Source: Marinilabilia rubra
GTDB lineage: Bacteria; Bacteroidota; Bacteroidia; Bacteroidales; Marinilabiliaceae
DNA: 64,000 nt
Reading direction: 5' to 3'
NCBI RefSeq assembly: GCF_003121985.1
Contig: NZ_QEWP01000003.1
Location: 124,001-188,000, forward strand
Positions within the stretch are counted from its first letter, which is position 1, and every line of letters begins with the position of its first letter. Below, piece after piece: positions 17,794 through 25,943 of the stretch. Below the pieces are notes generated by a model that saw nothing but the letters and a program-made list of their open reading frames with translations, was not told the DNA's origin and ran no database searches. The position numbers and the translations under genes are program-made.

Positions 17794-20700
17794 TTAAAAA
17801 TTAGCTTTTACCCCAATATTATAAATCTTTACCAGCGGGTATTTTGAATCATTTGCCGTGTTGGCTTCAGGATCCGCTATTTCAAGCTTATCGAAAGTCA
17901 GCAGATTAGCACCGTTAACGTAAGCTCTAAGTTTTTTAATACCAATGCCGGATAAGAAGTTACCTTTGAAATTATAACCTATCTCGATGTTTTTCAATCG
18001 CATATATGAAGCGTCTTTCACCCAGAAATCAGAATCTGCGCTATTGTGACTGCTACTGGATAAGCTTAACCTTGGATAAGTTGCAGATTCAGCATTTTCG
18101 GGCGTCCATCGTCCATCTGCCATGTACTGCATTAAAGACTTGTCTTGCGTTGTTCCAAATGCCTGGCGATAGCCTTCACCAAGAGTACGTGTCACATTTG
18201 TAGCACCAGCCCATGACATGGAGAGATCGAAGCCTTTAAATTGAGCTCCCATATTCAAACCAAAGATATATTCAGGGAATCGTGAATAACCTAATGCTTT
18301 TATATCATTTCCATTGACAATCCCGTCATTGTTTAAGTCCTTGTACTTCATATCTCCAGGACTCGGCATTGGTAAAGTTACATGTTCTGGGTAGTTACCC
18401 GCATCTATATCATCCTGAGTAAAGAAACCATCGAACACATACCCGAAGGGTGTCTCATTAGGATGCCCGGTAACATTCATGTATGGCTCAGGCTGGTCTA
18501 CTAATCCTTTTTCAATAACTTTATTTTTGGCATGAGACATGTTAGCATTAATCCAGTAATCGAAGCTACCTAGCTGGTCTTTCCATTTTAACTCAACTTC
18601 ATAACCTTTGTTCTTCATTTTACCAATATTGGTTGGAACAACTTGATAAGCAACAAACTCTGGAATTCTCTGGTCAACCGTTAAAATATCTGAGCGGTCT
18701 TCCCAGAATAAATCTACATTAACAGCCAGTCGGGAATTAAGAAAGTAAGTATCAATACCGATGTTCCGTTTGTGAGCAGTTTCCCATGTTACTCCGGGAT
18801 AACCAACGACGCCCTCCCTTGCTACAATCTGGTCATTAGGATTATCTATACCATAGTTATATCCTCCACCTGCTAAGTTATAGGGCCCTTCAGCGTAAAG
18901 GAATCGAGCTGTATTAAACTTATCATTACCAACCAGACCGTATGAACCACGTATTTTCAGGTAATTGATAAAACTGACATTCTGCATAAAACCTTCTTCT
19001 GTCAAGATCCAGCCAATTGACCCTGCCGGGAACCAACCGTAACGGCTCTCCTTGGCAAAATTCTCAGAACCGTTATACCCCATATTAAATTCAACCAGGT
19101 ACTTGGTGTTGTAATCATAGGTTACGCGGCCAACTAGACCAACAACACCTGTTGGTATATCATGGTAATTCATATAACCACCATTTGATGATTTAGGATA
19201 GTAAGTCTTACGCTGGTTATACAGTAGTAATCCACCTAAATTGTGCGATCCAAACTTTCGATTATAGTTAAAACCAAAATCAGTGTACCAGTTACGTGCC
19301 TTAGAGTAATTTTCGTTATAGCTGAGAGTTCCATCTTGACTATTACGACGGAGGGCAATGGTTTTATCCTCCGGAACAACACCATATTGATTAAATAAAT
19401 CACTTTGGGGATCGATGTGTGCCTGATAGAAAGGTTCGTAATGTGCTTTTGAAGTACTACGTGTTTTGGTGTGACCATATGTCGTATTATAAGCAAACTT
19501 TAACCTAAATTTTAAGCCTTTAGTAAGCTTTTTCAAATCCTGCTTTATATCAATATCAAAGTTAAGTGTATGATTTAAAGCATTGCTGTATCCACGGCCG
19601 TAGAAAGGTGTTAATCCTTCCTTTTTATTACCCGGAATATAAACATCGTTATTCTTGATCCATTTGCCGTCAACTATACCAGGCCCTGCAAAAGGAACTG
19701 ACCAGTAGATATTTCGGAACAAATGGTTCATACCATTCTGAGTATTAGGTTCATTTTTAACCCCAACACGCCCACCAATTGTAACACCTACATTAGTCGT
19801 ATTAGTGGCCTGAATATCAATATTTGAACGATAGTTATAACGCTTGAATGAAAAATTGTAGTCATAATCACTATCAAAGGTATTAAACAAACCATCCTGG
19901 CTAAGTATACCCACTGACACAAAATATTTTACCTTATCACTACCACCGCTTACATTAAGATTACCCTGATGCTGATAGGCATGTGGTTTGAGCATATAAT
20001 CCATCCAATCGGTGTTTGGATACATAATCGGATCGGATCCTGTACGAAAGGCTTCAACAACATGCGGTTGAAACCTATATTCTGATTCAGATAATCCATC
20101 ATTGGCCTGTGCCTCATTAAAACGCAACGCATAAGTATAACTGTCGGCAAATTTAAGCAAACGCGTTGGTTGCTGGATACCAGTTGATACTGATGCAGAA
20201 AAGCTGGCCTTGCCTTTTGTGCCTCGTTTGGTAGTTACAATGATAACACCATTAGCTCCTCTGATACCATACACTGCTGTTGCAGATGCATCTTTTAAGA
20301 CTGAAATACTCTCAATTTCATTTGGATCTAGATCAAAGAAAGAGCGTTCCACCCCATCTACAATATAAATAGGACTGGCATCCACGAATGTACCTTGGCC
20401 ACGAATAAATAGCTCAGGATCATCTGCTCCCGGCTGGCCTGATACCTGAATTGAAGATAGTCCGGTAACTTTACCTGTTAAGGTATTGGCAACACTGGCA
20501 TTAGGTGACTTCAGCAGCTCATCAGAGTCAACCGAGCTAATTGCACCTGTAATGGACACCTTTTTTTGTGCACCATAAGCCACCACCTGCACCTCTGCAA
20601 TATCCGTAACATCATCTTCTAAAACAACATTGATACTTCTTCCAGAAACAGGCAGTTCCTTTGTTTTCATTCCGATAAACGAGAATACCAGCACGTCATT

Positions 20701-20916
20701 GGAGGCTACTGAAATATCATAAGCCCCATCAATGTTTGTAATTGTTCCTTTTACTGTACCCTTCACGACGACAGTAACTCCTGGTAAAGGATATCCCTCT
20801 TCATCTGTAACCTTCCCGGACACCGAGGGTTCTTGTGACCATGTGAACATACCACAAAACATAACGAAACCCAACAATGTGAGAAGTCGCCTTAGTTTTT
20901 CTGGATTTTTTTTCAT
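17794..20916 (-). CDS. susC: SusC-like TonB-dependent outer-membrane transporter (pair 2)
   Basis: A 1040-residue SusC family transporter and the first large gene of the PUL operon. It has a signal peptide (about 1-28) and a carboxypeptidase-D-like domain (about 30-100, SGKVTDEEGYPLPGVTVVVKG). A SusC signature follows near residues 110-125 (VVAYGAQKKVSITGAI), with a plug (VDGVERSFFDLDPNEIES) and a barrel ending YNIGVKANF. It should import oligosaccharides with TonB energy. Upstream lie a 37-residue membrane peptide (20975-21088) and three ATCATTCAAAA-like repeats (21196-21247) that may bind the hybrid regulator encoded further upstream. Confidence 0.95.
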   Translation of the reverse strand: MKKNPEKLRRLLTLLGFVMFCGMFTWSQEPSVSGKVTDEEGYPLPGVTVVVKGTVKGTITNIDGAYDISVASNDVLVFSFIGMKTKELPVSGRSINVVLEDDVTDIAEVQVVAYGAQKKVSITGAISSVDSDELLKSPNASVANTLTGKVTGLSSIQVSGQPGADDPELFIRGQGTFVDASPIYIVDGVERSFFDLDPNEIESISVLKDASATAVYGIRGANGVIIVTTKRGTKGKASFSASVSTGIQQPTRLLKFADSYTYALRFNEAQANDGLSESEYRFQPHVVEAFRTGSDPIMYPNTDWMDYMLKPHAYQHQGNLNVSGGSDKVKYFVSVGILSQDGLFNTFDSDYDYNFSFKRYNYRSNIDIQATNTTNVGVTIGGRVGVKNEPNTQNGMNHLFRNIYWSVPFAGPGIVDGKWIKNNDVYIPGNKKEGLTPFYGRGYSNALNHTLNFDIDIKQDLKKLTKGLKFRLKFAYNTTYGHTKTRSTSKAHYEPFYQAHIDPQSDLFNQYGVVPEDKTIALRRNSQDGTLSYNENYSKARNWYTDFGFNYNRKFGSHNLGGLLLYNQRKTYYPKSSNGGYMNYHDIPTGVVGLVGRVTYDYNTKYLVEFNMGYNGSENFAKESRYGWFPAGSIGWILTEEGFMQNVSFINYLKIRGSYGLVGNDKFNTARFLYAEGPYNLAGGGYNYGIDNPNDQIVAREGVVGYPGVTWETAHKRNIGIDTYFLNSRLAVNVDLFWEDRSDILTVDQRIPEFVAYQVVPTNIGKMKNKGYEVELKWKDQLGSFDYWINANMSHAKNKVIEKGLVDQPEPYMNVTGHPNETPFGYVFDGFFTQDDIDAGNYPEHVTLPMPSPGDMKYKDLNNDGIVNGNDIKALGYSRFPEYIFGLNMGAQFKGFDLSMSWAGATNVTRTLGEGYRQAFGTTQDKSLMQYMADGRWTPENAESATYPRLSLSSSSHNSADSDFWVKDASYMRLKNIEIGYNFKGNFLSGIGIKKLRAYVNGANLLTFDKLEIADPEANTANDSKYPLVKIYNIGVKANF

Positions 20917-20974
20917 ACTTCTTGATTTAGTCTATTATTAATAAAAACATTTCTTCTAACAGTACCAGCAAGTG

Positions 20975-21088
20975 TTATATGATTAATGTGACTAACACTA
21001 CCACCACTAATACTGCTAAAACTATATATAGCAACACCTTGCTTTTTTTCACACTTTTAATTTGCCTCTCCAGTTCTTTAACTTCCAT
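20975..21088 (-). CDS. 37-residue single-pass membrane peptide (unannotated small ORF)
   Basis: A minus-strand ATG at 21088 opens a 37-codon frame ending TAA at 20975-20977. Residues 1-17 are charged and helical (MEVKELERQIKSVKKSK), and residues 18-37 are one uninterrupted hydrophobic helix of V, L and I with a single Tyr, Ala and Thr. A GGAGA sequence ends 8 bases before the ATG, a plausible ribosome-binding site, although Bacteroidetes use these weakly. The stop lies 58 bp upstream of susC, in the same direction, within the presumed leader of the PUL transcript. The layout suggests a cytoplasmic coiled-coil tip plus membrane anchor. I do not recognise a family. It could act on the regulator or transport complex, but no function is shown. 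Confidence 0.5.
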   Translation of the reverse strand: MEVKELERQIKSVKKSKVLLYIVLAVLVVVVLVTLII

Positions 21089-21195
21089 TTGTAATTTCTC
21101 CGTTATTTATTTTTCCTTCTGAATACTCCTTGAATTGAAAGAATTTTTCATTGTGCAAATTGATCATTTAAGACAGGAAGGCATAGGATCATACC

Positions 21196-21247
21196 ATCAT
21201 TCAAAAAGGTGATATCATTCAAAAGCAGTGCAATATCATTTTCAAAA
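21196..21247. promoter_or_regulatory. Three ATCATTCAAAA-type direct repeats upstream of the PUL operon
   Basis: ATCATTCAAAA occurs at 21196-21206 and 21214-21224, and a third copy with two extra T at 21235-21247. Starts are 18 and 21 bp apart, close to two helical turns, so a protein could bind them on one face. They lie about 110-160 bp upstream of the small ORF and about 280-330 bp upstream of susC. An AraC-type hybrid regulator encoded just upstream is the obvious candidate binder (inference). A run of seven G follows at 21250-21256. Confidence 0.35.
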
Positions 21248-21417
21248 GAGGGGGGGCACAATGGCGACACCCTTACACAACCAACTGATTTTACGGTCCT
21301 TTAACATTTGAAAACAAATCTTGGTATGTTTTAATGAAAAGACAGTAGAGTATTATTCTCATAAGGTTTTGTTAGAAAAAGTACGCAGAAATGACAAATA
21401 AAAGAACCAAATAATCC

Positions 21418-22111
21418 AGGAAAAATAAACCTAAATTATGACTCCATAGACCCATATAATTTCGGTGAAATTGTCAGGATAATGACCGTCTGTAAATTTA
21501 AGAAGCCGGCATATCTATTAGACATCCATATCAAACTTCTTTCTGTAATCGGTGGGAGTTAACTCGAATGATGGTTAAAAGTTGTAATGGAAGTTTTTAA
21601 TATCCTGGTAACCTACACTTTCAATTATTTCAGAAACAGTAAGGTTGGTTTCTCTCAATAACTGGGCTGCTCTATTCAAGCGAATGCTTTTAATAAACTC
21701 CCCAGGTGTTTTTCCTGTCAGTTTCTTGATCTTTCTATAAAAAGCAGAGGTACTCAAAGAACCTTATAATTTAGGGAATATAAACCTAAATTATGACTCC
21801 CTATAGGAATATAAATTAGGTAAAATTGTCAGCATCATGACCGCCTATAAATTTAAGAAGCTGGCAAATCTATTAGACATTCATATCAAACTTCTTTCTG
21901 TAATCGGTGGGAGTTAACTCAAATGATTGTTTAAAGTTGTAACGGAAGTTTTTAATATCCTGGTAACCTACACTTTCAATTATTTCAGAAACAGTAAGGT
22001 TGGTTTCTCTCAATAACTGAGCTGCTCTTTTCAACCGAATGCTTTTAATAAACTCCCCAGGTGTTTTTCCTGTCAGCTTCTTGATCTTTCTATAAAAAGT
22101 GGAGGTACTCA
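21418..22111. repeat. Tandem duplication of the 3' end of the hybrid regulator gene
   Basis: Two direct copies of about 339 bp, offset by 355 bp, lie at 21418-21756 and 21773-22111. The right copy contains the real end of the regulator gene and about 100 bp of downstream sequence; the left copy repeats both with scattered substitutions. The copies begin with a shared AACCTAAATTATGACTCC stretch and end at GAGGTACTCA. The left copy carries a nonsense change, so it is drifting. Confidence 0.9.
21518..21756 (-). pseudogene. Duplicated AraC-type DNA-binding domain fragment
   Basis: This is the coding part of the left copy of the tandem duplication. It matches the last roughly 79 codons of the hybrid regulator (STSAFYRKIKKLTGK through YQDIKNF), then meets TAA where the parent has AAA. 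After that stop the parent reading continues (PSFELTPTDYRKKFDMDV) to the same final stop. There is no ATG at its start. It encodes only the second half of the AraC domain and cannot sense anything, so it is most likely debris, though a short helix-turn-helix peptide from a TTG start is possible. Confidence 0.8.
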
Positions 22112-25100
22112 TCGCTAATTCACCAGCGAGTTTATCAGGATCAAAGCCGGCATCACCAATGTTTTTCTCAATTATTTTTATGGCCTTCTCAAGAATCTCA
22201 GCTTCTTCAGACTTTATAATAGCATCCGTAGGCTCCAATTTTACTTGTTTAGAAAATTTCTCTGATAAAAGTTTACGGCTTGCAACTAATTGCTTCACCT
22301 TCTCTATTATGAGTTCAGGTTCAAATGGCTTTGTCAAATACAGGTCTGCTCCTCTTCGGGCACCAAACAGTTGATCTTGAGGAGTCCCTTTAGCTGTTAA
22401 TAACACTACAGGTATATGAGCAATTGTATCATTGGATTTTATCTTCTGGCAAAGCTCAAAACCATCCATCCCTGGCATCATTACATCTGAAATAATGATT
22501 TGGGGCTTGTGCTCAATAATCAAATCAAATGCTTCAATTCCATCTTCCGCCTCCAATATTTCAAACTCATCAGCCAGTAAATCTTTCAAATATGATCTTA
22601 CTTCCCTGTTATCTTCCACAAGCATTAGCTTTGCCCCTTTGGTGCCGGTATTAACAGAGCGTGATTTTTTCATAACCGGTAACGGTTGAATGGCAACTAC
22701 CTGATCTATATTATTTTCACTTTGCAAGAGTTCATCATCAGAAAAATGCTGACGGCCTTTTGGCAATATCACACTAAAAGTGGTGAATTGTCCAGGCTTA
22801 CTTTCCACCTCTACCCGTCCTTTATGAAGTTCAACATAGTTCTTTACAAGTGCCAGTCCTATGCCTGAGCTACCAACAGAGCGTTTTTCTGTTGCCTGGT
22901 AAAAGCGTTCGAACAAATGTTTTATATCCTCATCGGAAATGCCTTTACCGTTGTTTTTAATCAGGATGTTTACTTCCGCTTTTGTTTCTGAAAGTAAGAC
23001 TTCAACTTGTCCTGGCGTCCCAACAAACTTAAAAGCATTGGATAGTAAGTTATTAACGACAACACTTAAGCGTTCGATGTCGAAATATAATTCCGGCTCT
23101 TTAAGCTTTAACTGTTTTTTAAAAGTGATATTCCTGGTTTCCGCCAGTTCTTCAAAGGCCTCGCAAATATCTGCAACAAAACTAACAATATTGTGATTTC
23201 CGACCTGCAACTTGATTTTACCGGCTTCAATCTTTCTAAACTCAAGCAATTGATTCACCAGGTTATATAGGCGTGTAGCATGCTGGTATACCAGCTGTAT
23301 TTTTTTTGAGGCAACTGCAGGTGGAACAGAAGCCAGATCTTTTTTCAACAACTCAATTATCGGCGCCAGAATGAGGGTTAATGGCGTTCTGAGCTCATGG
23401 GAAATATCTGTAAAGAACGTAAGTTTGTACTCATTAACACTTTGTTCCTTTTCACGTAGAATCCTCTGCAAATTAACAGCATTCACAAGGCGTTCCTGCT
23501 TACGGGTTACAATGGTAATTGATGCAACAATAAACAATATCAGCATAAAGTATATAATAACCGCATACCATGTGCGCCAAGGTGCCGGCAACACCCCAAG
23601 TTCAAGTGTTCGTGCCTTTTCACTCCAAACACCATTGCTATTTGTTCCATAAAGATGTAATGTGTAATCGCCCGGTTTTAAGTTGCTAAACGAAATATGC
23701 CTGCGTGTCCCAATATTTACTCTCTCTTCGCCACTTCCCTCCAACCAGTATGCATATTGATTTCGGTTTGGTGCTTTATAATCCAGGGCGGCAATTTCAA
23801 ATGAAAACTCTGATTCCTTATAAGTCAGCTCAAGATGATCAACCTCATTGATTGACTTTGATAATATCCCATCTTGCTCAATCGGCACTTCCTTGTTTAA
23901 GATTTTAAATTCAGTAATCACTACCGATGGCATAGTTAAGTTTTCTTTGATCTGATTGGGATGAAAAAAAGTAACATCAGAAGAACCACCAAAATAAAGC
24001 ACACCATCACTAGCTTTAAAACAGGCTGATTCGGAGAAGTTAGATCCGCCTAGGCCGTCAGACACATCGTAATTACGGAAAACATTATCTTCTAAATGTA
24101 ACATAGAAATACCAGCATTGGTGCTGATCCACACATTCCCTTTCTCATCACTTAACAGTGCATTTATATAATCATCTGAAAGGCCATTGGAACGGCTGTA
24201 ATCAGTAAGATCATATGCTTCTCCATGCTCAGATTTTGTAAGTTTATTCAAACTACAAGGTGTTCCAAACCAGATAGTACCATCGTTATCAATCCATGTG
24301 CACAATATAATTTTGCTCAATGGTTGCCGCTTATTACTTATCTGTTTTTCAACCGGTAAGAAGGTTGAATCTTCTGGCTGGAACTGAAAAAGTCCTTTAT
24401 AGGTACCTAACCAAAGTTTTTCTTCATGATCAACAAACACCGAAGTAACCCGATTTGTTGGCAGGTAACCTTCCTTCCTTTTCGCAACATAGTTCTTTAT
24501 CAACTGAAAAGTTGAATCTTTAAATTTATAGTGATAGAGCCCTCTTTGTTGAGTACCCACCCACAAATCATCATTGTTCAACAATATCTGGTGCACTTTC
24601 CTAACCTCCCATAGTTGAGGACTGTTAAAGAAAAGTGCTGCAGGTATTAATTCAAAAGAACCTTTAGGATTTTTACTTAATATATATAATCCTTCATTAG
24701 AACCAACCCATATGTTATTGTTGTCGTCCTCAAAAAAACCTCTAACTACGAGTTCGTCTTTGTTAAATAGGCGATCGTTTTTCTGAAAGCCAACTTTTAA
24801 AAGCCTTTTCCCATCATCAGAAACAAACAAACCTTGTCCTTTAGTTCCAATCAATATATTTTGATTGGCATCTTTGAAAATTGCATTAACATGAAGATTA
24901 AGTGGCTCTCCAGTTAATTCCAATCCCAATGTATTAAACTGGCTTTTATCCGAAAGACGAACAATACCTCCTCCATCCGTTCCTATCCAGATATCGCCTT
25001 CCCGATCCTGAAAAATGTCCAGAATAACATCATAATCTATTGAAGCTCCTGTATTTCTCTTAGGTTCAATATCTATTTGTTCAAAACCTTTTTGCTGCCG

Positions 25101-25943
25101 GTCAAATTTATAAATACCATTTCCCCAGGTGCCAACCCATAAGTCACCCAGATCGTCTTGCATTAAAGAATAAGCTTTGGGAGAAAGGGTTGACTTATTC
25201 AATGGCAATTGATATTGTTCGAAGGTGAAGTCTTGATAGTTAAACCGAATGAGGCCTAAATCCCATCCAACCAACCACAAAAAAGGCTCGCCCTGATTAC
25301 CGACAATAATTTCTGTAACCTCATTGGAGCCATTTTGTAATTTAATCGTTGTGAAGGTTTCGCCCAACTTTGCATAAATCAGTCCATCGAAAGCGGCACA
25401 CCAAATAATACTATCTGGAGTTTGAGCTATTGAGCTAACCCTTCGATTACCTAGCCAGTGCTGAACTGAATCCGTTTTAATATTAAGGTTATTCAAACCA
25501 CCATCTCCTCCTCCAATCAACATGCTCGAATCATCTTGAGAAGCAAACGCAATTATTCGGTTTGGCAACTGTTGATTAATATCCGGAACAGTAAAGCTTG
25601 CTTTTTCTATATCATAAATACTTAATCCACCAGATTTTGTTCCAATCCATATATTTCCTTTTCTATCTTGATATAGTCGTTCAACAGAAGGGTTGTTTAT
25701 ACTGTTTTGTTTGTCTCTACCAGGTTTAAATAGCTTAAAATTATATCCGTCATAGCGGTTCAGCCCTCCGCGTGTACCAAACCACATAAAACCATACTTA
25801 TCCTGTATTATAGTAGTTACTTCATTTTGAGAAAGTCCATTATTAGTATCAATATGTTGAATTGAATACCTATTTCCTGCACTGATATTAAGGATGTAAA
25901 ATCCTGACAAAAAGAATATTGATAAAATTATTTCCTTAAACAT
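21873..25943 (-). CDS. Hybrid two-component system sensor/regulator (HTCS)
   Basis: A 1356-residue one-protein two-component system, the usual local activator of Bacteroidetes PULs. Signal sequence 1-22; periplasmic sensor of repeated propeller blades (WFGTRGGLNRYDGYNF type, about 25-690) and a Y_Y_Y domain (about 695-780); one membrane helix near 788-810; HisKA with the phospho-accepting H849 in ISHELRTPL; HATPase with GIGLALVKNYVELHKG. The receiver domain has phospho-acceptor D1153 in IIISDVMMPG, and the AraC-type DNA-binding domain ends at residue 1356. It probably binds an oligosaccharide from the target glycan and turns on the operon starting near 21088. Its 3' end is duplicated immediately downstream. 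Confidence 0.95.
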   Translation of the reverse strand: MFKEIILSIFFLSGFYILNISAGNRYSIQHIDTNNGLSQNEVTTIIQDKYGFMWFGTRGGLNRYDGYNFKLFKPGRDKQNSINNPSVERLYQDRKGNIWIGTKSGGLSIYDIEKASFTVPDINQQLPNRIIAFASQDDSSMLIGGGDGGLNNLNIKTDSVQHWLGNRRVSSIAQTPDSIIWCAAFDGLIYAKLGETFTTIKLQNGSNEVTEIIVGNQGEPFLWLVGWDLGLIRFNYQDFTFEQYQLPLNKSTLSPKAYSLMQDDLGDLWVGTWGNGIYKFDRQQKGFEQIDIEPKRNTGASIDYDVILDIFQDREGDIWIGTDGGGIVRLSDKSQFNTLGLELTGEPLNLHVNAIFKDANQNILIGTKGQGLFVSDDGKRLLKVGFQKNDRLFNKDELVVRGFFEDDNNNIWVGSNEGLYILSKNPKGSFELIPAALFFNSPQLWEVRKVHQILLNNDDLWVGTQQRGLYHYKFKDSTFQLIKNYVAKRKEGYLPTNRVTSVFVDHEEKLWLGTYKGLFQFQPEDSTFLPVEKQISNKRQPLSKIILCTWIDNDGTIWFGTPCSLNKLTKSEHGEAYDLTDYSRSNGLSDDYINALLSDEKGNVWISTNAGISMLHLEDNVFRNYDVSDGLGGSNFSESACFKASDGVLYFGGSSDVTFFHPNQIKENLTMPSVVITEFKILNKEVPIEQDGILSKSINEVDHLELTYKESEFSFEIAALDYKAPNRNQYAYWLEGSGEERVNIGTRRHISFSNLKPGDYTLHLYGTNSNGVWSEKARTLELGVLPAPWRTWYAVIIYFMLILFIVASITIVTRKQERLVNAVNLQRILREKEQSVNEYKLTFFTDISHELRTPLTLILAPIIELLKKDLASVPPAVASKKIQLVYQHATRLYNLVNQLLEFRKIEAGKIKLQVGNHNIVSFVADICEAFEELAETRNITFKKQLKLKEPELYFDIERLSVVVNNLLSNAFKFVGTPGQVEVLLSETKAEVNILIKNNGKGISDEDIKHLFERFYQATEKRSVGSSGIGLALVKNYVELHKGRVEVESKPGQFTTFSVILPKGRQHFSDDELLQSENNIDQVVAIQPLPVMKKSRSVNTGTKGAKLMLVEDNREVRSYLKDLLADEFEILEAEDGIEAFDLIIEHKPQIIISDVMMPGMDGFELCQKIKSNDTIAHIPVVLLTAKGTPQDQLFGARRGADLYLTKPFEPELIIEKVKQLVASRKLLSEKFSKQVKLEPTDAIIKSEEAEILEKAIKIIEKNIGDAGFDPDKLAGELAMSTSTFYRKIKKLTGKTPGEFIKSIRLKRAAQLLRETNLTVSEIIESVGYQDIKNFRYNFKQSFELTPTDYRKKFDMNV

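Follow-up and report, generated by a model that had tools for sequence, protein, structure and literature searches.

A conserved 37-codon membrane micropeptide gene, linked to one branch of HTCS regulators, as a candidate feedback partner in glycan sensing

A 37-codon minus-strand frame (20975–21088) in the 64,000-nt stretch of Marinilabilia rubra DNA analysed here (the window) encodes a micropeptide with a basic N-terminal part and a C-terminal transmembrane (TM) helix, and its relatives accompany one branch of HTCS (hybrid two-component system) regulators rather than the SusC transporter that most often follows them. Judged from sequence comparison, the frame is coding, keeps its length among relatives and stands at the head of operons next to this branch. 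We consider it about an even call that the adjacent HTCS activates an operon of which this gene is the first, and that the gene's product binds and tunes that HTCS as a feedback partner.

The frame opens with an ATG at 21088 and translates as MEVKELERQIKSVKKSKVLLYIVLAVLVVVVLVTLII, followed by a stop. Its longest hydrophobic stretch is formed by the last 20 residues and is unbroken, so that the charged helix followed by 20 hydrophobic residues of the initial annotation was confirmed by translation and hydrophobic-run count. The coordinates of stop and start codons likewise bear out the claimed 58-bp gap to a co-directional susC: the spacer (20917–20974, minus strand), in which a terminator scan found no site, ends at the ATG at 20916 of a susC homologue (17794–20916, minus strand; ORF and domain search), the next gene of the putative operon. 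The ATG and the GGAGA 8 nt upstream of it are both readable in the sequence; the GGAGA is nevertheless weak evidence, since it is not a conserved feature before the ATG of the relatives and Bacteroidetes mRNAs are described as being without classical Shine-Dalgarno sites (PMC7366714). AlphaFold2, run on the single sequence, gave one helix spanning residues 2–36 with a mean pLDDT of 92.8. The micropeptide would be placed in the inner membrane with one TM helix, nearly nothing of it reaching the periplasm and its basic helix probably lying in the cytoplasm, as the charge suggests.

No model scored above its cut-off for the micropeptide in Pfam (best 17.7 bits against a curated cut-off of 26.8) or NCBIfam (best 14.5 against 40), and the sub-threshold Pfam scores to DUF2116, Orbi_NS3 and SNARE were rejected as helix noise. 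Rfam revealed no family in the window, the 1.2-kb region had no match in a plasmid collection, and no description of such a micropeptide family was found in the titles and abstract openings of the open-licence literature on small proteins, SusC, HTCS and PULs.

Among 71 genomes of the family, relatives with 54% identity were found in G013, G014 and G017 and one with 45% in G030; matches at E <= 1 occurred in 23 of the 71, the weak ones being mostly chance. The closest relatives (43–54% identity) keep the length, and profile searches added further members. In an alignment of 13 members, nine have 37 aa, with a range of 35–38 if counting begins at the start closest to the helix; several members have longer in-frame alternative starts. 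Nei-Gojobori dN/dS was 0.17, 0.20 and 0.32 for the window micropeptide against L057, L058 and L060, 0.14 for L057/L058 and 0.27 for L062/L063. Many distant pairs were saturated, and two pairs involving L052, taken from an ungapped alignment, came out near 1. Third codon positions took the largest share of changes in these five close pairs. Within the window-like group, length and spaced basic residues are conserved, and the TM sequence is very hydrophobic and tolerant of change. Because the closest relatives keep their length and dN/dS lies at 0.14–0.32, we regard the 37-codon frame as a real gene. The initial annotation had set a test in advance, namely conservation with synonymous change and without stops or frameshifts, and this is what L057 and L058 display (54% identity, 37 aa, dN/dS 0.17–0.20).

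A chance ORF could be suspected from the shortness and intergenic position of the frame; this reading is refuted by the conservation of its homologues, and we give it a practically negligible probability. It is also at odds with a simulation, in which first-order Markov sequences were modelled on the same intergenic region and only five of 5000 fitted the description by which micropeptides were recognized in our surveys (25–50 codons, a C-terminal TM segment, at least three K/R before it and a stop no more than 200 nt from the next gene; hereafter the rule).

Further afield, profile searches matched 34 of 393 genomes of the order, the window's own included, supporting one new member in G158, and 32 of 396 genomes of the class, again including the window's own, supporting no new member. 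Of eight weak candidates from these sets, six from the class and two from the order, the seven with a readable context revealed no SusC or HTCS operon, and most of the remaining weak matches lay inside longer frames or contained stops. A SusC scan of genome contigs confirmed no micropeptide relative. The window's own genome matches profile A4 at C2, but A4 contains that very sequence, which makes the match circular.

The gene upstream of the micropeptide, in the same direction, encodes an HTCS regulator (21873–25943, minus strand) with Reg_prop propeller, Y_Y_Y, HisKA, HATPase_c, receiver and AraC-type HTH domains, which we propose as its partner. When the last 250 residues of this HTCS were compared with the same 71 genomes, the matches listed fell on two sides of a gap in identity, 22 at 48% or more and the rest at 45% or less. 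These 22, together with the HTCS of G158 and L159 of Marinifilum, formed one group of 24 (SH-aLRT 99) in a tree of 75 HTCS, built by a quick method from a set that drew 26 HTCS from the 40 controls and 21 from the 72 named ones. By the rule, a micropeptide lies directly downstream of 19 of the 22 branch HTCS tested (21 of the family, leaving aside L276 at a contig end, plus G158) and of three of five borderline HTCS. This compares with none of 40 HTCS from the same bacterial family but outside the branch, which were hand-picked among the matches listed and of which 32 have a co-oriented next gene, and with one of 72 named HTCS, a set that includes one branch member, L159. The single named match, L160, pairs in the tree with the micropeptide-positive L323. 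A looser scan revealed hydrophobic ORFs of other form after seven of the 40 controls. Since the first members were already known when the rule was drawn up, the branch counts are partly fitted.

The three branch loci missed by the rule were inspected individually. L279, in G158, has the micropeptide, the start of susC having been misplaced by the rule; at L272, MMNKQKQQDANVSIKRLKYASYILYVLLFVIIAGVIAILSF lies 51 nt before the susC that heads a co-oriented run with the HTCS at its far end; and the sequence at L273 breaks off where its contig stops. In Marinifilum L159, MKPMESQIEEKIRKTKQLKMFLYGLLLLFVIAVMLIFI lies 100 nt before a run of esterase, GH3 and sulfatase genes on the other side of the HTCS. 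Adding L279, L272 and L159 to the 19 rule matches, among which we count L271 despite an opposite-strand gene, transposase-like by eye, between HTCS and micropeptide, the micropeptide heads an adjacent operon in 22 of the 24 branch HTCS. Neither L273 (downstream side) nor L276 (upstream side) showed a micropeptide on the readable side, the other side being a contig end. L272 and L159 were checked later than the rule, as were the SusC genes of G049, and both were searched more widely than the controls. An equally wide search of 1.14 Mb around the 80 named HTCS loci listed, a subset of all such loci, gave six operon-head matches, three at branch or related HTCS (L158, L159, L160) and three elsewhere. 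These last (L182, L202, L214) are frames of 44–47 aa with a basic N-terminus and a C-terminal TM segment, heading genes near HTCS in Flectobacillus, Spirosoma and Fibrella.

Some loci do not follow this pattern and speak against the feedback-partner reading. Copies without a neighbouring branch HTCS were found in G030 (L060), G046 (L061) and G012 (L054), and similar peptides stand beside HTCS outside the branch at L160, L323 and L327, L324 being a weaker case. The G012 frame (C146, 205–345; also listed as L361) is near a contig start and has no co-oriented gene within 2 kb; beyond it lie a putative HTCS-like frame of 1361 aa and a SusC-like frame.

The initial annotation had placed the peptide before susC, which holds at the window locus; as a general framing it is too narrow, as the peptide follows the HTCS branch and stands at the head of operons with other next genes too. 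In most loci the micropeptide is directly followed by SusC, and TonB-dependent uptake requires inner-membrane partners, so that a helper of the operon's uptake or processing machinery, for example a partner of a TonB-linked or other transporter, comes to mind; we nevertheless hold this to be unlikely. In a survey of all 40 over-cut-off SusC genes of the window's genome and 50 of the 52 of G049 (two were left out, one at a contig start and one a partial match), all six SusC genes directly after a branch HTCS had the micropeptide, and 83 of the 84 others lacked it (Fisher P 1.1e-8, with relatedness ignored); four of these others, L119, L120, L375 and L409, appear from their position to lie further inside branch operons. 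The one positive, L402 (G049, before the SusC at C311:149393), is a 28-aa basic-plus-TM frame with a gap of 96 nt and no adjoining branch HTCS, and may be either chance or a distant relative.

The varied next genes point the same way. At L062 they encode, by Pfam, an AraC/cupin regulator, an aldehyde dehydrogenase, a RhaT-like permease and a mandelate-racemase-like enzyme; by eye, L063 and L051 display similar sequences in the same order and L064 a similar first gene. The next gene of L278, read as its duplicate L158, has a lipoprotein-like start and no Pfam match, and that of L159 encodes an esterase, followed by GH3. The constant adjacency to SusC expected of a SusC/SusD accessory was thus not observed, AraC, lipoprotein-like and esterase operons being headed as well.

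Divergence was compared in 11 of the 13 SusC-bearing loci, L274 and L275 (SusC unrecognised by the script) and L059 (a near copy of L058) being omitted. Micropeptide distances correlated with those of the C-terminal part of the HTCS (rho 0.49, P 0.001) and not with those of SusC (rho -0.01, P 0.54), so the micropeptide does not track the transporter; without L057 and L058, the values were 0.27 (P 0.044) for the HTCS and -0.11 for SusC. Co-inheritance by linkage alone could account for part of this signal. A SusC-specific helper as the sole role is ruled out by the survey, the distance test and the varied next genes taken together. What the micropeptide accompanies, as these comparisons show, is one branch of HTCS regulators, not the transporter.

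Upstream of the micropeptide, three TTTGAA repeats on the minus strand form a putative HTCS-binding series: repeat 1 at 21241–21246, repeat 2 at 21218–21223, 23 nt from the first, and repeat 3 at 21200–21205, 18 nt from the second. They are followed by CAATTTGC (21155–21162, minus strand), a -7-like promoter element 67–74 nt before the ATG and one mismatch from the TAnnTTTG consensus. The upstream region can be aligned among the window, L057, L058 and L060, and more loosely with L061. TTTGA repeats lie 22–23 nt apart in several relatives, and an element like CAATTTGC stands about 70 nt before the ATG in those aligned, being identical in L057 and L060 and reading GAATTTGC in L058. This conserved footprint has the look of an activated promoter followed by a short leader and fits a PUL transcript that begins with the micropeptide gene, its start being predicted about 60 nt ahead of the frame.

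A first ORF in this position may also act in cis, translation rather than the peptide setting downstream expression through coupling, through stalling or by bringing the mRNA to the membrane. The transcript does appear to begin with the micropeptide ORF, the gap to the next gene being mostly 6–117 nt and at most 189 nt, and leader-peptide-like short ORFs have been described in long 5' UTRs of B. thetaiotaomicron (PMC7366714). Against it stand the strongly diverged synonymous sites beside conserved amino acids, the wide variation of the spacing, the lack of any terminator site between the frame and susC in the scan, and an RNA fold z-score of -0.37; we judge such a cis role improbable, to the same degree as the uptake helper. 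An RNA attenuator was rejected, for the window locus only, on the last two of these results. Leader peptides of attenuated operons resemble the micropeptide as short first ORFs before structural genes; the micropeptide differs from them in its selection at the amino-acid level, its TM architecture and the lack of a terminator or an unusual RNA fold.

As a feedback partner, the micropeptide would be made from the head of an operon that the adjacent HTCS switches on, and its TM helix and conserved lysines would bind the TM and juxtamembrane region of that same HTCS. Binding would tune HTCS signalling in a loop like that of MgrB on PhoQ, damping being slightly likelier than boosting. The TM and linker part of the HTCS correlates less with the micropeptide (0.18, P 0.04) than the C-terminal part does (0.40), so a contact through the TM region is not favoured by these distances.

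MgrB, the PhoQ inhibitor of Enterobacteria, resembles the micropeptide in architecture, both being shorter than 50 aa with a single TM segment and N-terminal lysines. It is described as a 47-aa member of the PhoQ regulon whose TM segment is needed for inhibition and whose N-terminal lysines matter (PMC8404706), with a key Trp in the TM segment and a periplasmic Cys pair (PMC8404706, PMC8534201), and PhoQ has a charged residue, where TM2 joins HAMP, that has been implicated in the action of MgrB (PMC8404706; PMC8534201). MgrB is thus a product of the regulon of the sensor it inhibits, as we infer for the micropeptide. The latter differs in containing neither Trp nor Cys, hence no Cys pair, and in having almost no periplasmic tail, which weighs against the analogy; its partner would be a hybrid HTCS instead of a classical kinase, and it is encoded at the head of its target operon, unlike MgrB. 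As the Trp and Cys features are absent, we did not file it under MgrB. The sensor-kinase activators SafA, UgtL and MzrA are also small membrane proteins acting on a sensor kinase; SafA and MzrA are reported to act through their periplasmic regions (PMC8534201), of which the micropeptide has almost none.

Two other roles were considered. A broader function in the membrane, such as lipid or envelope adjustment switched on by this HTCS branch without binding to the HTCS or the operon's proteins, would suit the very hydrophobic, tolerant TM sequence and the occurrence in several operon types; it fits poorly with the length and spaced basic residues kept in the window-like group and with the six copies of G049, one for each branch operon and not one per genome, and we regard it as quite improbable. 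Type I toxins are similar to the micropeptide in size and TM composition, and a hydrophobic peptide of that kind, paired with a concealed antitoxin RNA, might be imagined; the micropeptide's fixed place at the operon head, next to a single type of sensor in over 20 loci, makes this very improbable.

HTCS are described as combining sensor and regulator, with control lying within a single chain (PMC11253607). A conserved micropeptide tied to an HTCS branch, heading neighbouring operons even where the HTCS gene is at the opposite end, suggests that glycan sensing has a component so far missed and would offer a cheap genetic handle on it. Genes of fewer than 50 codons in well-studied operon types are recoverable in this way, via the larger gene they follow.

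The branch HTCS also share a distinctive kinase feature. Aligned to the window HTCS, residue 997 (codon 22953–22955, minus strand) is Asn instead of the G1-box Asp (DxGxG) in all 17 aligned branch HTCS; in non-branch named HTCS it is Asp in 63 of 67 and Asn in four. Residue 901 is Glu in 17 of 17 branch HTCS against one of 67 non-branch named ones, and residue 1025 is Ser in 82% of the branch and Gly in 66 of the 67 others. Reading the pattern directly, we found Asn also in L057, L059, L276, L279 and L159; of 18 control loci, 14 could be read, and every one of these has Asp. Asp is kept in the micropeptide-bearing L160, L323, L324 and L327, so the Asn is a mark of the branch and is not required for the peptide. 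In this ATPase fold, an Asp-to-Asn change in the G1 box would be expected to weaken nucleotide binding. It is conceivable, if rather doubtful, that the operon supplies its G1-box-Asn HTCS with a dedicated micropeptide, a partner subunit that resets or stabilises a weak kinase. On that reading, HTCS signalling would take two proteins and carry its own feedback, in place of the one-polypeptide scheme by which it is described. The receiver motif of the window HTCS (21873–25943) reads AHIP; it is given as S/CHIP in most Bacteroides HTCS, such deviation having been linked to weaker autoinhibition (PMC11253607).

In its general layout the locus resembles other HTCS-controlled polysaccharide utilization loci, with an HTCS, susC/susD pairs, a glycoside hydrolase and a sulfatase, and differs by the extra, conserved micropeptide gene and by an HTCS from a distinct branch whose G1 box has Asn. 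Downstream of the micropeptide, SusC and SusD are followed by a second SusC-type TonB-dependent receptor and SusD, then by a Glyco_hydro_cc protein with CBM_4_9 and a CBM protein carrying a Por secretion tail; genes for an FAD oxidoreductase and a sulfatase lie at a greater distance. A tandem duplication (21401–21700 and 21756–22055; 300 nt, 91% identical, spacing 355) covers the 3' end of the HTCS gene together with the DNA that comes after it and left a 60-codon fragment of an AraC-type domain at 21575–21757, between the HTCS and the promoter.
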